A stretch of 64,000 bases of DNA from a virus: positions 43,023-107,022 of IMG/VR virus record IMGVR_UViG_3300025930_000008; one strand, given 5' to 3'. The position numbers and the translations under genes are program-made. The notes beneath the pieces are model-generated. The model saw only the letters and a list, made by a program, of their open reading frames with translations. It did not search any database and was not told the origin of the DNA. Positions 100 through 18,800 of the stretch are shown here, one piece after another. The first letter of the stretch is position 1; each line of letters opens with the position of its first letter.

Positions 100-170
100 A
101 GGCAAGGACGGGAGTCGAACCCGTGTTACAGGTTTTGCAGACCCGCGCGTAGCCATTCCGCCACCTTGCC
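100..170 (-). tRNA. tRNA-Cys(GCA)
   Basis: Full cloverleaf: GGCAAGG/CCTTGCC acceptor, GTTCGAC T-loop, anticodon loop CTGCAAA (anticodon GCA). The discriminator is T, as is usual for tRNA-Cys. CCA is not encoded. The stop codon of the preceding small ORF lies inside this tRNA. Confidence 0.93.
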
Positions 171-284
171 ATTACGTCGTAGACATTCCTCACGGTCACA
201 ATTACATGCGTTCTGACAAACGAAACCCTTGTGACACTCACAGTCTTTGATGGGCTGTTCACAAATAGTACATTTCCATACCAT
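126..284 (-). CDS. Cys-rich zinc-binding microprotein between tRNAs
   Basis: A 52-aa protein with many cysteines in pairs (CTIC, CEC, CQNAC, CDREEC), which suggests one or two zinc sites. The ATG lies only 3 nt after the discriminator base of tRNA-Asn, and no Shine-Dalgarno is visible. Its last 14 residues are encoded by the 5' half of tRNA-Cys, and the TAA stop falls in the variable region of that tRNA. RNase P cleavage of tRNA-Cys would therefore remove the stop codon. Function unknown. The Cys pattern supports translation of the first part, while the part inside the tRNA may be incidental. Confidence 0.6.
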   Translation of the reverse strand: MVWKCTICEQPIKDCECHKGFVCQNACNCDREECLRRNGKVAEWLRAGLQNL

Positions 285-286
285 AG

Positions 287-358
287 CTCGCCGGGTAGGA
301 CTTGAACCTACAACCATTCGGTTAACAGCCGAACGCTCTGCCATTGAGCTACCGGCGA
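287..358 (-). tRNA. tRNA-Asn(GTT)
   Basis: TCGCCGG/CCGGCGA acceptor, loop CTGTTAA giving anticodon GTT, T-loop TTCAAGT, discriminator G as expected for Asn. Positions 8-10 (TAG) are also the stop codon of the upstream small ORF. Confidence 0.95.
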
Positions 359-609
359 CTGTTGATCCAACTATCTAGACACGCCTTATGAGTGGGCAGT
401 AACTCCCAATCAGCGTGCCAAGTACCCTGCACAATGTCAAAGGTTTCCGTACCTTCGTCTGACCACTCGCCACCCATGCGTTGTATTTTACACGGGATTC
501 CCTGGCGTCCTTCCTGAGCCTGTTCAACTGTAATGATACGCCAGATCGCACATTCGCTTTTATCAAAGCGGTAGTTTGCATATATTCTACCGACTAGCGG
601 CTCTTTCAT
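349..609 (-). CDS. Small hypothetical protein between tRNA-Lys and tRNA-Asn
   Basis: An 86-aa acidic, tryptophan-rich protein with no family recognised. Its ATG begins 2 nt after the discriminator of tRNA-Lys. The only purine-rich stretch upstream is the G-run of that tRNA's own acceptor. Its TAG stop is bases 8-10 of tRNA-Asn. A full-length open frame with soluble-protein composition supports a real gene. Initiation could be leaderless after tRNA 3' processing, which is inference. Confidence 0.75.
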   Translation of the reverse strand: MKEPLVGRIYANYRFDKSECAIWRIITVEQAQEGRQGIPCKIQRMGGEWSDEGTETFDIVQGTWHADWELLPTHKACLDSWINSRR

Positions 610-610
610 A

Positions 611-683
611 TGCCCCCAACAGGGATCGAACCTGTGACCTTGAGATTAAGAGTCTCCTGCTCTACCGGCTGAGCTATAGGGGC
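611..683 (-). tRNA. tRNA-Lys(CTT)
   Basis: GCCCCTA/TGGGGGC acceptor, loop CTCTTAA (anticodon CTT), T-loop TTCGATC, discriminator A. The outermost pair of the anticodon stem is a mismatch. Confidence 0.93.
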
Positions 684-747
684 GATGATTGGTCATTCCC
701 CTTACCCCTAGGGAATCGTTACTGGATGGGCAACCAATCAAGTTGTA

Positions 748-827
748 TGGCGGGTGGAGGAATCGAACCTCATTACGCTCTCGCCAGCTAGGTTATGAGC
801 CTTGCTGCCCAAACCTGGGCACCCGCG
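748..827 (-). tRNA. Atypical tRNA-Met-like gene (CAT)
   Basis: Anticodon loop CTCATAA matches elongator and initiator Met tRNAs, and the T-loop TTCGATT is normal. If a standard 5-bp T-stem is kept, the acceptor becomes CGCGGGT/ACCCGCC with a C1-C72 mismatch, which resembles initiator tRNAs. U8 is missing, the D-arm is GC-rich and short, and the variable region is about 16 nt. Boundaries and charging identity are therefore uncertain. It may be a diverged tRNA-Met or a decaying gene. Confidence 0.6.
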
Positions 828-841
828 TCGTAAATTTGCTA

Positions 842-927
842 CGGAGAGTGGGGGATTTGAACCCCCGGTACCCACTGGATACTCCGTCTTAGCAGGACGG
901 TGCATTAAGCCACTCTGCCAACTCTCC
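842..927 (-). tRNA. tRNA-Ser(GCT)
   Basis: Class II tRNA of 86 nt with a long variable arm, GGAGAGT/ACTCTCC acceptor, loop CTGCTAA (anticodon GCT) and discriminator G. The last codons and TAA stop of the upstream ORF lie inside its 5' half. Confidence 0.95.
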
Positions 928-1113
928 CTGTGTGATACGTGGCACCCACGTACCCCTTTTAACTAAGGCGAAAAACTCTATCAACGTACACTTAGAACTA
1001 TCCGTCAATCCATCTACACGGCCGTCTGTGTAAGTCCAATAAACTCTTTCCGTCTTAGGATCATAGAGATAATCCTTCACCATTGCGTTCGCTTCCCAAC
1101 GAAAAGAAATCAT
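889..1113 (-). CDS. Small hypothetical protein ending inside tRNA-Ser
   Basis: A 74-aa frame with a protein-like centre (YLYDPKTERVYWTYTDGRVDG). The first ATG is 2 nt after the tRNA-Arg(CCT) discriminator, with no Shine-Dalgarno. A second ATG at 1083 follows GGGAAG with an 8-nt spacer and gives 64 aa. The final 12 residues are read from tRNA-Ser, and TAA uses bases 36-38 of that tRNA. No family recognised. Which start is used decides whether the leaderless-after-processing idea applies here. Confidence 0.7.
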   Translation of the reverse strand: MISFRWEANAMVKDYLYDPKTERVYWTYTDGRVDGLTDSSKCTLIEFFALVKRGTWVPRITQGELAEWLNAPSC

Positions 1114-1114
1114 A

Positions 1115-1186
1115 CGGCCCCGGTGAGAATCGAACTCACATCTATCCCTTAGGAGGGGATCGTTCTGTCCATTATACTACAGGGCC
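1115..1186 (-). tRNA. tRNA-Arg(CCT)
   Basis: GGCCCTG/CGGGGCC acceptor, anticodon stem ATCCC/GGGAT, loop CTCCTAA (anticodon CCT), T-loop TTCGATT, discriminator G. Confidence 0.95.
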
Positions 1187-1242
1187 AGAAGCAGGGCATT
1201 TCAGCCCCACCCACGTCACCGCTTTAGGACAACGGCTGCCTG

Positions 1243-1446
1243 TCAGATATCCATAGCGCACTGGTTAACGCAATCCCGACAACAATTGCACACCGTATCG
1301 TAATCGCCACCGATTTCCTCTGCATACGGACAGCCATGAGGAATCTCTCCCTCATTACCGCAGTTACAGAGCGGACTGATTGCCGATAACAACCAGTCTT
1401 TGACAACCTGCTTGTAAATATGCATACGTATTTGCACAGCAGGCAT
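1243..1446 (-). CDS. Cys-rich microprotein after tRNA-Ile
   Basis: A frame of 67 aa from the ATG at 1446, or about 60 aa from the ATG at 1425. The C-terminal half is cysteine-rich (CNCG, HGC, CNCCRDC, QC), consistent with zinc binding. The 1446 ATG begins at the tRNA-Ile discriminator base itself. Neither start has a clear Shine-Dalgarno. No family recognised. It belongs to the series of small Cys-rich ORFs that follow RNA genes in this array. Confidence 0.55.
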   Translation of the reverse strand: MPAVQIRMHIYKQVVKDWLLSAISPLCNCGNEGEIPHGCPYAEEIGGDYDTVCNCCRDCVNQCAMDI

Positions 1447-1518
1447 AGGCCAGGATGGATTTGAACCATCGACCCGCACCTTATAAGAGTGCCGCTCTAA
1501 CCCCTGAGCTACTGGCCC
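1446..1518 (-). tRNA. tRNA-Ile(TAT)
   Basis: Acceptor GGGCCAG/CTGGCCT with a terminal G-U pair, anticodon stem GCACT/GGTGC, loop CTTATAA giving anticodon TAT (AUA codons), T-loop TTCAAAT, discriminator A. Confidence 0.88.
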
Positions 1519-1707
1519 AATTAGTTAGAGGATCGTATATGGGGGACTTACTTCATGGATAGGTACGCACTACGCCGGGGCGACCACACCCCTCTCGGCC
1601 AGCACGCATACTCCTAGATGTAGTCAACATCGTTAGTGACCTATATCAATCCGCTTACCCTTATCCCACCTGCGCACTGTGGGCGGCAATTATCCGTCCG
1701 ATCCTCA

Positions 1708-1779
1708 AGCCCGCGAGGGGAATCGAACCCCTATCCCTGCTTTACGAAAGCAGTATAATAGCCGTTATACTACGCGGGC
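1708..1779 (-). tRNA. tRNA-Thr(CGT)
   Basis: GCCCGCG/CGCGGGC acceptor, anticodon stem CTGCT/AGCAG, loop TTCGTAA (anticodon CGT), T-loop TTCGATT. The discriminator is T, which is unusual for Thr. Confidence 0.93.
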
Positions 1780-1782
1780 GAC

Positions 1783-1875
1783 TTACTTATCAGGCACAAT
1801 CATAGTGCCTTTACAGATGGGACATACCCTACCATTGTTAAGGATGCCCCCTTTCATCTTGCATTTACAATCCAT
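1783..1875 (-). CDS. 30-aa zinc-ribbon microprotein after tmRNA
   Basis: The ATG is 3 nt after the tmRNA discriminator and the TAA stop is 3 nt before the tRNA-Thr 5' end, so the gene fills the gap completely. The protein carries CKC near the N-terminus and CPIC near the C-terminus, the spacing of a minimal zinc ribbon. No Shine-Dalgarno is seen. No family can be assigned at this length, but the two Cys pairs make chance translation less likely. Confidence 0.55.
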   Translation of the reverse strand: MDCKCKMKGGILNNGRVCPICKGTMIVPDK

Positions 1876-1877
1876 AG

Positions 1878-2343
1878 TGGAGGTGGGCGGAATTGAACCG
1901 CCGTCCTGCGTACACTTGTTGACTCAGTTTCTAGCAGCTTTGTAATACAATACTGGCAACCGGTTCTGAGCCGCCTACCCTTACTCTACCACAAGATACG
2001 GCAGACTCATGCTAGTGACTGTTTGAAATAGTCGGGAGCAGCCTGTTGTTCCGTACACCCTGCTGTCGAGATTACTCACCACGCAATGGAAATACCATTA
2101 GAGTGGAGCCGAGTAAGCCAATTAGATTGACCGTCTAATCTTTCCAAACAAGGATTTGGGACTTTATACCCCGGCCACGCTTTCTGTTCCTAGGTCCGTG
2201 GCTCCTGACCCGAGCGGACTAAGCCGCTAGAGCAAACGTATGAGTGTCTGCAATTATTGTTAGTGGTAGGCCACTACCCGCTGCACTAAGGCAACCGCAT
2301 CTTACACAGTCGATGCCTGTCACCCCCATGATTATCAGCCTCC
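1878..2343 (-). ncRNA. ssrA: tmRNA, trans-translation RNA
   Basis: The 3' end has a tRNA-like T-arm (GGCGG-TTCAATT-CCGCC) followed by CACCTCC-A. The 5' end starts GGAGGCTG and contains GGCATCGACTG, matching the conserved 5' domain of tmRNAs. Between them, at 2219-2251, an open reading frame encodes the tag ADTHTFALAA followed by TAG. The ALAA ending is the degradation signal seen in bacterial tags. Length is 466 nt, longer than the E. coli RNA (363 nt). The acceptor appears to hold A3-U70 with a bulged C, not the usual G3-U70 identity pair for alanyl-tRNA synthetase. CCA is not encoded. The RNA would rescue ribosomes stalled on non-stop messages. Confidence 0.93.
2219..2251 (-). other. tmRNA tag reading frame (ADTHTFALAA)
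   Basis: GCA resume codon followed by nine codons and TAG. The sequence upstream, ACTAACAATAATT, resembles the region before the resume codon of other tmRNAs. The hydrophobic ALAA end would target tagged proteins to Clp-type proteases. Confidence 0.9.
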
Positions 2344-15839: not shown

Positions 15840-18800
15840 TGCAATTCGCTCCACTACACAATCACTCAGAATACTCCGCACTAGACGGGTTCTCTACCTG
15901 TGAGGAAATAGCGGAGCGATGCGTTGAATTGGGGTGTCCCTGCTGCGGTATCACAGATCACGGTACTGTGGCAGGGCACCTTGAATTCGCTAAGGCCCTA
16001 GCTAAGAGGGATATCAAGCCTATCTTTGGTACAGAATTGTACCACGGAGTCAAGCCCAAAGGTTACAAGGGCTGGACTCGGAACGAGCGTGACCAGGCGC
16101 ACCTAGTTGTGGGTGCCATGACGAATGAGGGCCTACGTAACCTATGGCGACTGAATGATATCGCCAGTCAGAACTTTCGATACGTAGGGAGGGTGACGTG
16201 GGATGATCTTGAGGGCTATTCAGACGGTCTTTTTTGCACTACAGCTTGCATCGCTAGTCTCGTATCTAGTGAGTTGCTTGCCGGACACTCGGAGTCTCTA
16301 AATAAGTACGTAGAGATATTCAAGGATAATCTCTACGTTGAGTTACACACCTATCCCAGCCCTGACCAAGAGCAGATCAACCTGGCTCTTTGTCAAATTG
16401 CAACGGAACGTGGACTCCCCGTAGTATACGCTAACGATGCCCACTTTGCCTATCCCGGGCAGTATGCGCAGCACGATGCTTATGTTGCCATGCAGACCGG
16501 GGAATCCATTGACACTCCGATCAATGACCGTAAGATGTGGCACCCCTTTGCGTTGTATATGATGGACGAAACGGAGATTCGCAACCATTTACATTACCTG
16601 CCTGACTCTGTAGTTGATGAGGCGTTGTCAAATACCGTCGCGCTCGGCAGCCGCTGTAATGTCAGCCTCCCATCTATCAAGCCACATCTCCCTATCTTCA
16701 TCCCCAAGCATTGCGAATTCGTCCCCGAACATCATCGTGAGGACAATGCGAGCAAGCTCTTTATCGACCTTGTTGAGAATGGCCTCAAGGATCGCTACGG
16801 AGAGGACGCCGGGGATGAGGTATGGCAGCGCGCGAATAAGGAAATGGAGGCTTTCTTTGCAGGAGGGCTTCATCACTATTTCTTACAAGCGTGGGACTTC
16901 TGTCAGTTCTGTGATGCAAATGGCATAGAACGGGGTCCGGGTCGTGGATCGGCGGCGGGAGCGCTTGTTTCTTACGCGCTTGGTATTACGGACGTTGACC
17001 CACTTCGTTACCAACTCTCTTTCGAGAGGTTTTGGAACGCTGGTCGAGCTAAAGGCTTCCCCGATATAGACAATGATTTCCCCGTTTATGAGCGTGAGAG
17101 GATTAAGGAGTACCTCACTCGTAGGTGGGGCGGCGACAACGTACGCAGCATAGGCACGGTGACCCGGCTGAAACCGAAAGCTGCCCTTGATAAGACTTAC
17201 AGGGTATTTGGCGTCGAGTTTCAAGAGAAAGAATCCATCAAAAAGATTGTCAACACTGTACCTGACCTCAACATTCTCGGTGCCGACTCGGTGGGCTGGA
17301 AAGATGACGGTGGCGGTAAGACGATCTACGTGTGGTCACATGTTGGTCGGCAGATAAAGCAGTACGTTGAGCAGCGTCCACCTGATCGTCAAACTGTCCT
17401 GTGGAAGTGGCTTGATTTCGTGGAGGCTGTGTGTTCCCGTGTTTCAGGATACGGCGTACATGCCTCAGGAGTCGTTGTGTCCGATGTGCCATTGAGTGAT
17501 GAGTTGCCTAGTTTCTGGTCAGCTACAGGTAACACTCAGGCGACGATGTTCCCGATGGCCGACGTGGATAAGCGCGGATTCATCAAGCAGGACATTCTTG
17601 GCCTGCGGAATCTAGACACTCTACAGGAGTGGAAGCGCCTCGTCAAGCTGAACCACGGCATTGATATCAAGTGGTCAGGATTAGAGGCTAAGCAGCACCC
17701 ACTTGAGATGTGGGAAATGCTGGACAAGGGACTCACCACGGGTGTGTTCCAAATTGAGACTAGTCCACCTGTGAGAAAGCTGACCATGGAATTCAAGCCA
17801 CGCTCAGTCGAGGACTTGTCAGTTATTGTGGCCTTGAACCGTCCCGGCCCACTACGTAGTGGTACGGGTGAAAGGTTCGTAGCCCGCCGTAATGGCCTAG
17901 AGCCGATCCAATACGACCACCCCTTTCTTGAGGATATCCTAGATGAAACTTATGGACTGTTTCTATATCAGGAGCAGGTCATCGCGCTGTTCAGTAAGCT
18001 AGGTCTATCTGAGTCTGATGCTGATGCGATCCGTAAGGTACTAGGCAAGAAGAATAATGAGGATTGGCAAGCGGTCAAGAATGGTGAAGGGGAGTGGCAA
18101 GATAAGGGCTTTTTCGATCTTGCTCGCCGTGTTATGGATGAGGGTTCTGCGCAGGTTATATGGAACCGCCTTGAGGAATTCGCTAAGTACAGCTTCAACA
18201 AGTCGCACTCCATCGCTTATGCAACGATTGCGTTTCGTACGCTCTATGCGAAGTATTACGCGCCAACAGAATTCATCATGGCATGTATACGAACCAATAA
18301 CGAAGATGCAGCTTTATACGTGGCTGAGGGACGACGCATCGGAGTGCCAGTATTGCCTCCGGATATTAGAAAATCCGGTGCTGAGGTTGGCGTTACCGAT
18401 GGAGCTATCTACTATGGACTCGCAAACGTTAAGGGTGTGGGCCTATCATCTGCACGGTATCTCTCCCAACTTGTCAAAACACATTCATGCTTTACGCCCG
18501 CCGACGTTGAAACGGCGTTAGAGGTAGAAGATGCGGCGTGGCGAAAGAGAAAAGAGGCTCATCAGGCTAATAATGTCACAGCCTTCCGCGAGCGCTCACC
18601 CCGTAGCCAGTGTCGATCCAATATCATTGAGGCCCTTGAGAGAGTTGGGGCCTTTGACAATTACAAAGAAAGAACTGTATCTCTGGCTGAACAGCAAGCC
18701 GCCGAGACTGAACTCTTGGGCATTGTTCTTAGCGACAACACTCAGGAAGCGCTAGATAGAAACTCCGATCTGGTAGAAGAATGTGACGATTACCAGGAGT

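Follow-up and report, generated by a model that had tools for sequence, protein, structure and literature searches.

Small open reading frames at the 3' ends of RNA genes in a phage array

We analysed a stretch of DNA of 64,000 nucleotides (nt) from a soil phage, the window, which corresponds to positions 43023-107022 of the 107,022-base IMG/VR virus record IMGVR_UViG_3300025930_000008. The first 5 kb of the window are the end of a minus-strand transfer RNA (tRNA) array, with 18 tRNA calls and one transfer-messenger RNA (tmRNA) gene; the array extends beyond the window into the part of the record referred to here as L083. A preliminary description of this DNA had noted that five small open reading frames (ORFs) begin with an ATG right next to the 3' end of an RNA gene. 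All five were found on the minus strand at the spacings described (Table 1), and the remark that three of them are Cys-rich also held. We counted the spacing, +n, from the discriminator base to the A of the start codon. Discriminators were set from the T-arm plus acceptor pairing and match the Rfam ends for all four tRNAs (Asn, Lys, Arg and Ile). Four of the five window ORFs start virtually without a spacer, at +2 or +3.

The same layout was seen in the record outside the window, behind tRNA-Ala (+2, 94 amino acids [aa]) and tRNA-Leu (+3, 90 aa), and in the related records L003 (behind tRNA-Pro, tRNA-Val and tRNA-Cys), L005 (tRNA-Lys) and L007 (tRNA-Gln and tRNA-Ile). None of the 36 scored tRNA ends of the record encodes CCA, and 35 of the 36 tRNAs are followed by a U at +1 or +2.

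Table 1. RNA genes and abutting ORFs in the window. Junctions are written as discriminator-spacer-start codon.
Feature	Positions	Strand	Discriminator or start	Junction	Remarks
tRNA-Asn(gtt)	287-358	-	discriminator 287	G-CT-ATG	CCA-less
52-aa ORF	126-284	-	ATG at 284, +3 of tRNA-Asn		Cys-rich; candidate coding; stop 45 nt inside tRNA-Cys
tRNA-Lys(ctt)	611-683	-	discriminator 611	A-T-ATG	CCA-less
86-aa ORF	349-609	-	ATG at 609, +2 of tRNA-Lys		stop 10 nt inside tRNA-Asn
tRNA-Arg(cct)	1115-1186	-	discriminator 1115	G-T-ATG	CCA-less
74-aa ORF	889-1113	-	ATG at 1113, +2 of tRNA-Arg		stop 39 nt inside tRNA-Ser
tRNA-Ile(tat)	1446-1518	-	discriminator 1446	ATG, no spacer	CCA-less; discriminator is the A of the following ATG
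67-aa ORF	1243-1446	-	+0 of tRNA-Ile		Cys-rich; later in-frame starts: GTG at +9 and another ATG
tmRNA	1878-2327	-	discriminator 1878	A-CT-ATG	
30-aa ORF	1783-1875	-	ATG at 1875, +3 of tmRNA		Cys-rich, with CxC and CxxC motifs (MDCKCKMKGGILNNGRVCPICKGTMIVPDK); stop 3 nt before tRNA-Thr

The spacing exceeds chance in the record and its relatives

An ATG at +2 or +3 that opens at least 40 codons was found at 5 of 36 tRNA ends of the record, against 0.43 to 0.46 expected (p about 1e-4). The lower expectation derives from background positions +12 to +200 and the higher from position-specific base frequencies, a null that is inflated by the abutting cases themselves. When the relatives L003-L007 and L045 were included, the count rose to 11 of 90 CCA-less tRNA ends against 0.97 to 1.08 expected (p = 8e-9 and 2e-8). 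Openness alone gave the same picture: 11 of the 12 ATGs at +2 or +3 open at least 40 codons, compared to 92 of 344 (27%) at +12 to +200 (p = 7e-6), and this test is unaffected by base bias behind the discriminator. The placement of ATGs at tRNA ends in the record and its relatives is not due to chance.

The layout is not universal among viral tRNAs. A random set of IMG/VR tRNAs, picked with a T-arm pattern, showed no excess at +2/+3 (2 observed, 2.0 expected), and starts formed a hump at about +17 to +28, as expected for genes led by a Shine-Dalgarno sequence. This result rules out a general rule and indicates that the layout is confined to some phage lineages. We also scanned IMG/VR for the discriminator plus C and ATG, or plus CT and ATG, at the proper distance behind a T-arm, with CTAAG as the control. 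Of the distinct cases, 40 of 73 and 33 of 68, respectively, opened an ORF of at least 40 codons, compared to 8 of 73 for the control (p = 9e-9 and 7e-7), and many of these ORFs encode evident proteins.

In cellular genomes, 31 of 76 matches to the CTATG pattern were open, but another frame was open equally often, because many of the matches appear to sit inside genes. Genuine cases remain, among them the GlmU gene of an actinobacterial metagenome-assembled genome (L604, 4147-4220), which starts at +3 of tRNA-Gln. It resembles the phage junctions in that a clear protein gene begins at discriminator plus CT plus ATG. Of 30 loci inspected within its class, many have tRNA-Gln ahead of glmU, at various short distances, and we rejected this pair as a cellular parallel since the neighbours are kept while the spacing is not fixed.

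The spacing before one gene family is kept to the base in cultured Streptomyces phages

The preliminary description had proposed comparing the spacing in related phages, and in homologous Streptomyces phages it is indeed conserved to the base beside one protein family. TunaTartare and NootNoot carry several annotated genes at +2 (A-C-ATG or A-C-GTG) behind tRNA-Leu, tRNA-Phe and tRNA-Glu, and an unannotated 50-aa ORF lies likewise at +2 behind tRNA-Lys. We traced the gene behind tRNA-Leu (the LEU family, 62 to 67 aa) in 10 phages of the Loccivirinae and Boydwoodruffvirinae. Its start codon (ATG in eight phages, GTG in the other two) is exactly at +2 of the discriminator position in all 10, although the sequences of the preceding tRNAs have diverged. 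The ratio of nonsynonymous to synonymous substitution (dN/dS) was 0.02 to 0.08 for pairs with unsaturated synonymous change; judged by these values, the LEU reading frame is under strong purifying selection. The Bmoc gene occupies precisely the space from tRNA-Leu to tRNA-Val.

Another family (PHE) lies behind tRNA-Phe and starts in the same way in NootNoot, Mildred21, Daubenski, Jay2Jay and Wofford. Yaboi has lost tRNA-Phe, and the gene now lies at +3 of tRNA-His. Annotated starts of tRNA-abutting genes are inconsistent among the cultured Streptomyces phages.

A rearranged junction was observed in L006 (19389-19500). There, a complete tRNA-Lys is followed by the leftover 3' half of a tRNA, which directly precedes a homologue of the ORF behind tRNA-Lys in L005. 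The arrangement looks like tRNA replacement by recombination.

Shine-Dalgarno pairing at the junctions

For ordinary annotated genes, the anti-Shine-Dalgarno energy had a median of -6.1 kcal/mol in the NootNoot stretch and -6.8 kcal/mol in that of TunaTartare, compared to -2.4 and -2.2 kcal/mol at random positions. The median of the tRNA-abutting ORFs of the record, its relatives and TunaTartare was -2.0 kcal/mol, which is the background level. The earlier observation that these starts lack a convincing Shine-Dalgarno sequence is therefore true for most of them; it does not extend to the window Lys ORF, where a GGGGG in the acceptor stem scores -7.8 kcal/mol, although it lies just 3 nt ahead of the ATG. 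The Lys-type ORF of L005 is a similar exception (-8.6 kcal/mol). Single annotated abutting genes also vary (NootNoot GTG gene behind tRNA-Glu, -6.1; TunaTartare genes behind tRNA-Phe and tRNA-Arg, -6.6 and -6.3 kcal/mol), indicating that tRNA sequence alone can offer some pairing.

Coding character of the window ORFs

By codon scores, the Lys and Arg ORFs fall on the coding side and rank top of the six frames; both look coding. The Ile ORF is also top of six frames but with a low score, and the scores of the Asn and tmRNA ORFs favour neither side; we are less sure that these three are genes. Similarity gave little help. The 86-aa Lys ORF and the Leu ORF of the record had no relatives in IMG/VR, the Val ORF of L003 matched only itself there, and DNA and protein searches of known phages with the window array and its ORFs returned nothing useful. 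A Pfam search gave sub-threshold matches only. We found no ORF conserved from the record to L003, and the ORFs stand behind different tRNAs in the two; all three abutting ORFs of L003 finish before the next tRNA.

The tmRNA tag and the likely host

Reading the frame of the window tmRNA gives the canonical tag ADTHTFALAA, and the tag called by ARAGORN is wrong. L003 encodes a tmRNA at about 16213-16765, with the tag ADTHQFALAA, that both ARAGORN and Rfam missed. We take the window tag to resemble actinobacterial tags. The ribonucleotide reductase is 55 to 58% identical to those of the Streptomyces phages pSt2308, GiJojo and BRock and 59% identical to that of a Tunturiibacter phage. Together, the tag and the reductase make an actinobacterial host probable but, given the Tunturiibacter match, not certain.

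tRNA 3' maturation as a possible source of leaderless messages

We lean modestly towards the reading that tRNA 3' maturation makes leaderless or near-leaderless messenger RNAs (mRNAs) in these phages. Small protein genes would directly adjoin CCA-less tRNA and tmRNA genes at their 3' ends and be transcribed with them as one array. Since the tRNAs lack an encoded CCA, an endonucleolytic 3' cut is needed. The RNase Z of Bacillus subtilis is more active when a U follows directly downstream. RNase Z cleaves directly behind the discriminator (PMC8549757); this enzyme, or an actinobacterial activity cutting after the discriminator plus C, would leave an RNA with AUG, U-AUG or CU-AUG at its 5' end. 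Cleavage between the two Cs of CCA occurs in most CCA-encoding tRNAs of Streptomyces coelicolor (PMC4681348) and in some tRNAs of Propionibacterium acnes (PMC3848588), and so has been published for CCA-encoding tRNAs, whereas the tRNAs here are CCA-less. Depending on the cut, A-C-ATG would yield C-AUG or AUG, and A-CT-ATG would yield CU-AUG or U-AUG. With 0 to 2 nt before the AUG, such RNAs would count as leaderless by the usual criterion of <10 nt. Ribosomes would then translate the freed RNA with little or no leader, as they do many messages in Actinobacteria (PMC4681348, PMC3848588), and the tRNA would stand in for promoter, 5' leader and Shine-Dalgarno sequence.

The same mechanism had been put forward in the preliminary description. 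In its favour, the spacing is enriched and, in the Streptomyces phages, exact to the base beside a selected protein without a Shine-Dalgarno sequence; the Ile ORF conflicts with it, and of the five ORFs in the window three end within the following tRNA. It fits the Lys and Arg ORFs best and probably the tmRNA and Asn ORFs, and it does not fit the Ile ORF cleanly.

Several observations weigh against the processing mechanism. A cut right after the discriminator would remove the A of the Ile ORF's start codon; as this A is the discriminator itself, the ORF either begins further down or lies outside the pattern. Of the record's seven abutting ORFs, five (those behind tRNA-Asn, -Lys, -Arg, -Ala and -Leu) have their stop inside the next tRNA gene, by 10, 10, 31, 39 and 45 nt when ordered by depth (window 126-284, 349-609 and 889-1113; L083 10380-10664 and 15852-16124), so that RNase P cleavage would leave them without a stop codon. 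The tmRNA ORF stops 3 nt short of tRNA-Thr and the Bmoc gene abuts tRNA-Val, but these five overlap the tRNA that follows. The preliminary description had named as a counter-sign homologous arrays with broken ORFs and unkept spacing, and here the outcome was mixed. In L006, the ORF persists beside a displaced tRNA, and Moab (L336, 150-251) keeps its ORF although no tRNA is recognised and the tRNA-Leu is degenerate; its T-arm, acceptor 3' strand and spacing still stand before the ORF. An intact cut site is thus not indispensable in these two. In the PHE family, Karimac and StarPlatinum carry homologues without any tRNA, behind a purine-rich stretch in the upstream gene; Tomas has no ATG at +2 or +3; and several annotators place the start 9 to 18 nt further on. 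The true start of this family may be their choice, a second ATG at +11. The GGGGGC of Lys-type acceptor stems could serve as a Shine-Dalgarno sequence. Genome-wide Shine-Dalgarno use, by a crude measure, is no lower in phages with abutting genes; the idea that the layout marks phages of non-Shine-Dalgarno hosts is unsupported by that same measure. The uncertainty about the host also counts here.

Among the alternatives, we consider simple compaction unlikely but worth taking seriously. The ORFs would be real genes that sit beside the tRNA since no leader is required, initiated independently of Shine-Dalgarno sequences on uncut precursor or longer RNA, with no role for tRNA processing. The ORFs of L006 and Moab beside displaced or broken tRNAs, and the varied distances between tRNA-Gln and glmU in Actinobacteria rather than just +2/+3, favour compaction. 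It accounts poorly for the exact +2 in all 10 LEU family members despite diverged tRNAs and for the strong Shine-Dalgarno sequences of ordinary genes in the same phages, and a structured tRNA on uncut RNA should hinder initiation 1 to 2 nt downstream. That the window ORFs are mostly not genes but random open frames, some of them entering the next tRNA, seems to us distinctly unlikely. The missing relatives of the 86-aa and Leu ORFs, the lack of useful hits in the phage collection, the undecided Asn and tmRNA codon scores, the stops inside tRNAs, and L003, which has a similar tRNA order but no ORFs at these tRNAs, all speak for it. Against this stand the excess of open frames (11 of 12 versus 27%), the top-ranking scores of the Lys and Arg ORFs, and the same layout in other phages, where it is demonstrably genic.

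Two further explanations place the signal inside the tRNA gene. If the 3' acceptor strand doubled as the Shine-Dalgarno sequence of the following gene, the pairing energies of the Lys-type stems in the window and L005, and the remnant of such a stem kept in L006, would be explained; however, just 2 of 13 abutting ORFs reach -6 kcal/mol, the median equals the background, and the G-run is merely 3 to 4 nt from the ATG. This explanation is very improbable. A promoter within the tRNA gene could instead start transcription at the ATG and give a leaderless message without processing. A -10-like TANNNT placed for such a promoter, about 7 to 12 nt ahead of the ATG, was found at only 1 of 13 abutting ORFs (TACTCT, rightly placed in the tRNA-Val of L003), and the tRNA sequence is constrained by tRNA function. 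We regard internal promoters as ruled out for practical purposes.

An extension of the processing mechanism is suggested by the five ORFs that stop inside the following tRNA. RNase Z would produce the leaderless starts, while RNase P, cleaving at the tRNA that follows, would produce 3' ends lacking a stop codon. The phage's own tmRNA, which has a canonical tag and lies in the same array, would handle the resulting messages. We see this two-sided punctuation as a long shot; if true, it would provide a reason for tmRNA carriage by tRNA-rich phages.

Relation to known systems

In mitochondria, messages are flanked by tRNAs that RNase P and RNase Z cut out, thereby creating the mRNA ends, and translation starts are leaderless or nearly so. 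This tRNA punctuation of mitochondrial transcripts goes back to Ojala, Montoya and Attardi in 1981 (cited in PMC8601606). The phage arrays are similar in that genes start at the tRNA 3' end almost without a spacer and the tRNAs are CCA-less. They differ in that the DNA is that of a phage in a bacterium, the genes are small and accessory, only some of the tRNA gaps are filled, 1 to 2 nt would be left before the AUG, no polyadenylation completes stop codons, and the cleavage itself is deduced from the layout.

Leaderless messages are common in Actinobacteria, with 264 leaders of <10 nt in S. coelicolor (PMC4681348) and leaderless mRNAs in P. acnes (PMC3848588). Like the proposed phage messages, these lack a Shine-Dalgarno sequence and have an AUG or GUG as their 5' end or close to it, but they arise from transcription starting at the codon, whereas in the phages tRNA cleavage would generate the 5' end. 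MazF makes leaderless mRNAs in Escherichia coli (reviewed in PMC3997798), and there too the end is made by an endonuclease and not by a promoter; MazF, however, is a stress toxin cutting at ACA, unlike the constitutive tRNA-maturation enzyme considered here. A case of release behind a tRNA is the small nucleolar RNA Tko-sR44, which follows tRNA-Arg and is thought to be freed by RNase Z from the tRNA co-transcript (PMC4247193), although it is archaeal and not an mRNA. Searches of open-access literature, which leaves out most subscription papers, turned up no account of leaderless mRNAs arising through tRNA processing in phages or bacteria. Mitochondria already exemplify the principle, and the phage version is new as far as that literature goes.

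If the processing mechanism is correct, phage tRNA arrays would double as expression platforms in which a gene could follow each tRNA, with the outputs of the two coupled. It would add a further route to leaderless messages in bacteria and would partly account for the small genes between phage tRNAs that gene callers overlook or begin at the wrong codon.

Additional features of the array

Within the window, ARAGORN called a tRNA at 2665-2735 with the anticodon TTA, which would read UAA. The call is below the Rfam gathering score and may represent a decayed or miscalled tRNA. Elsewhere in the array, an HNH-like protein of 115 aa (L083, 9962-10310) begins at +9 of tRNA-Gly.

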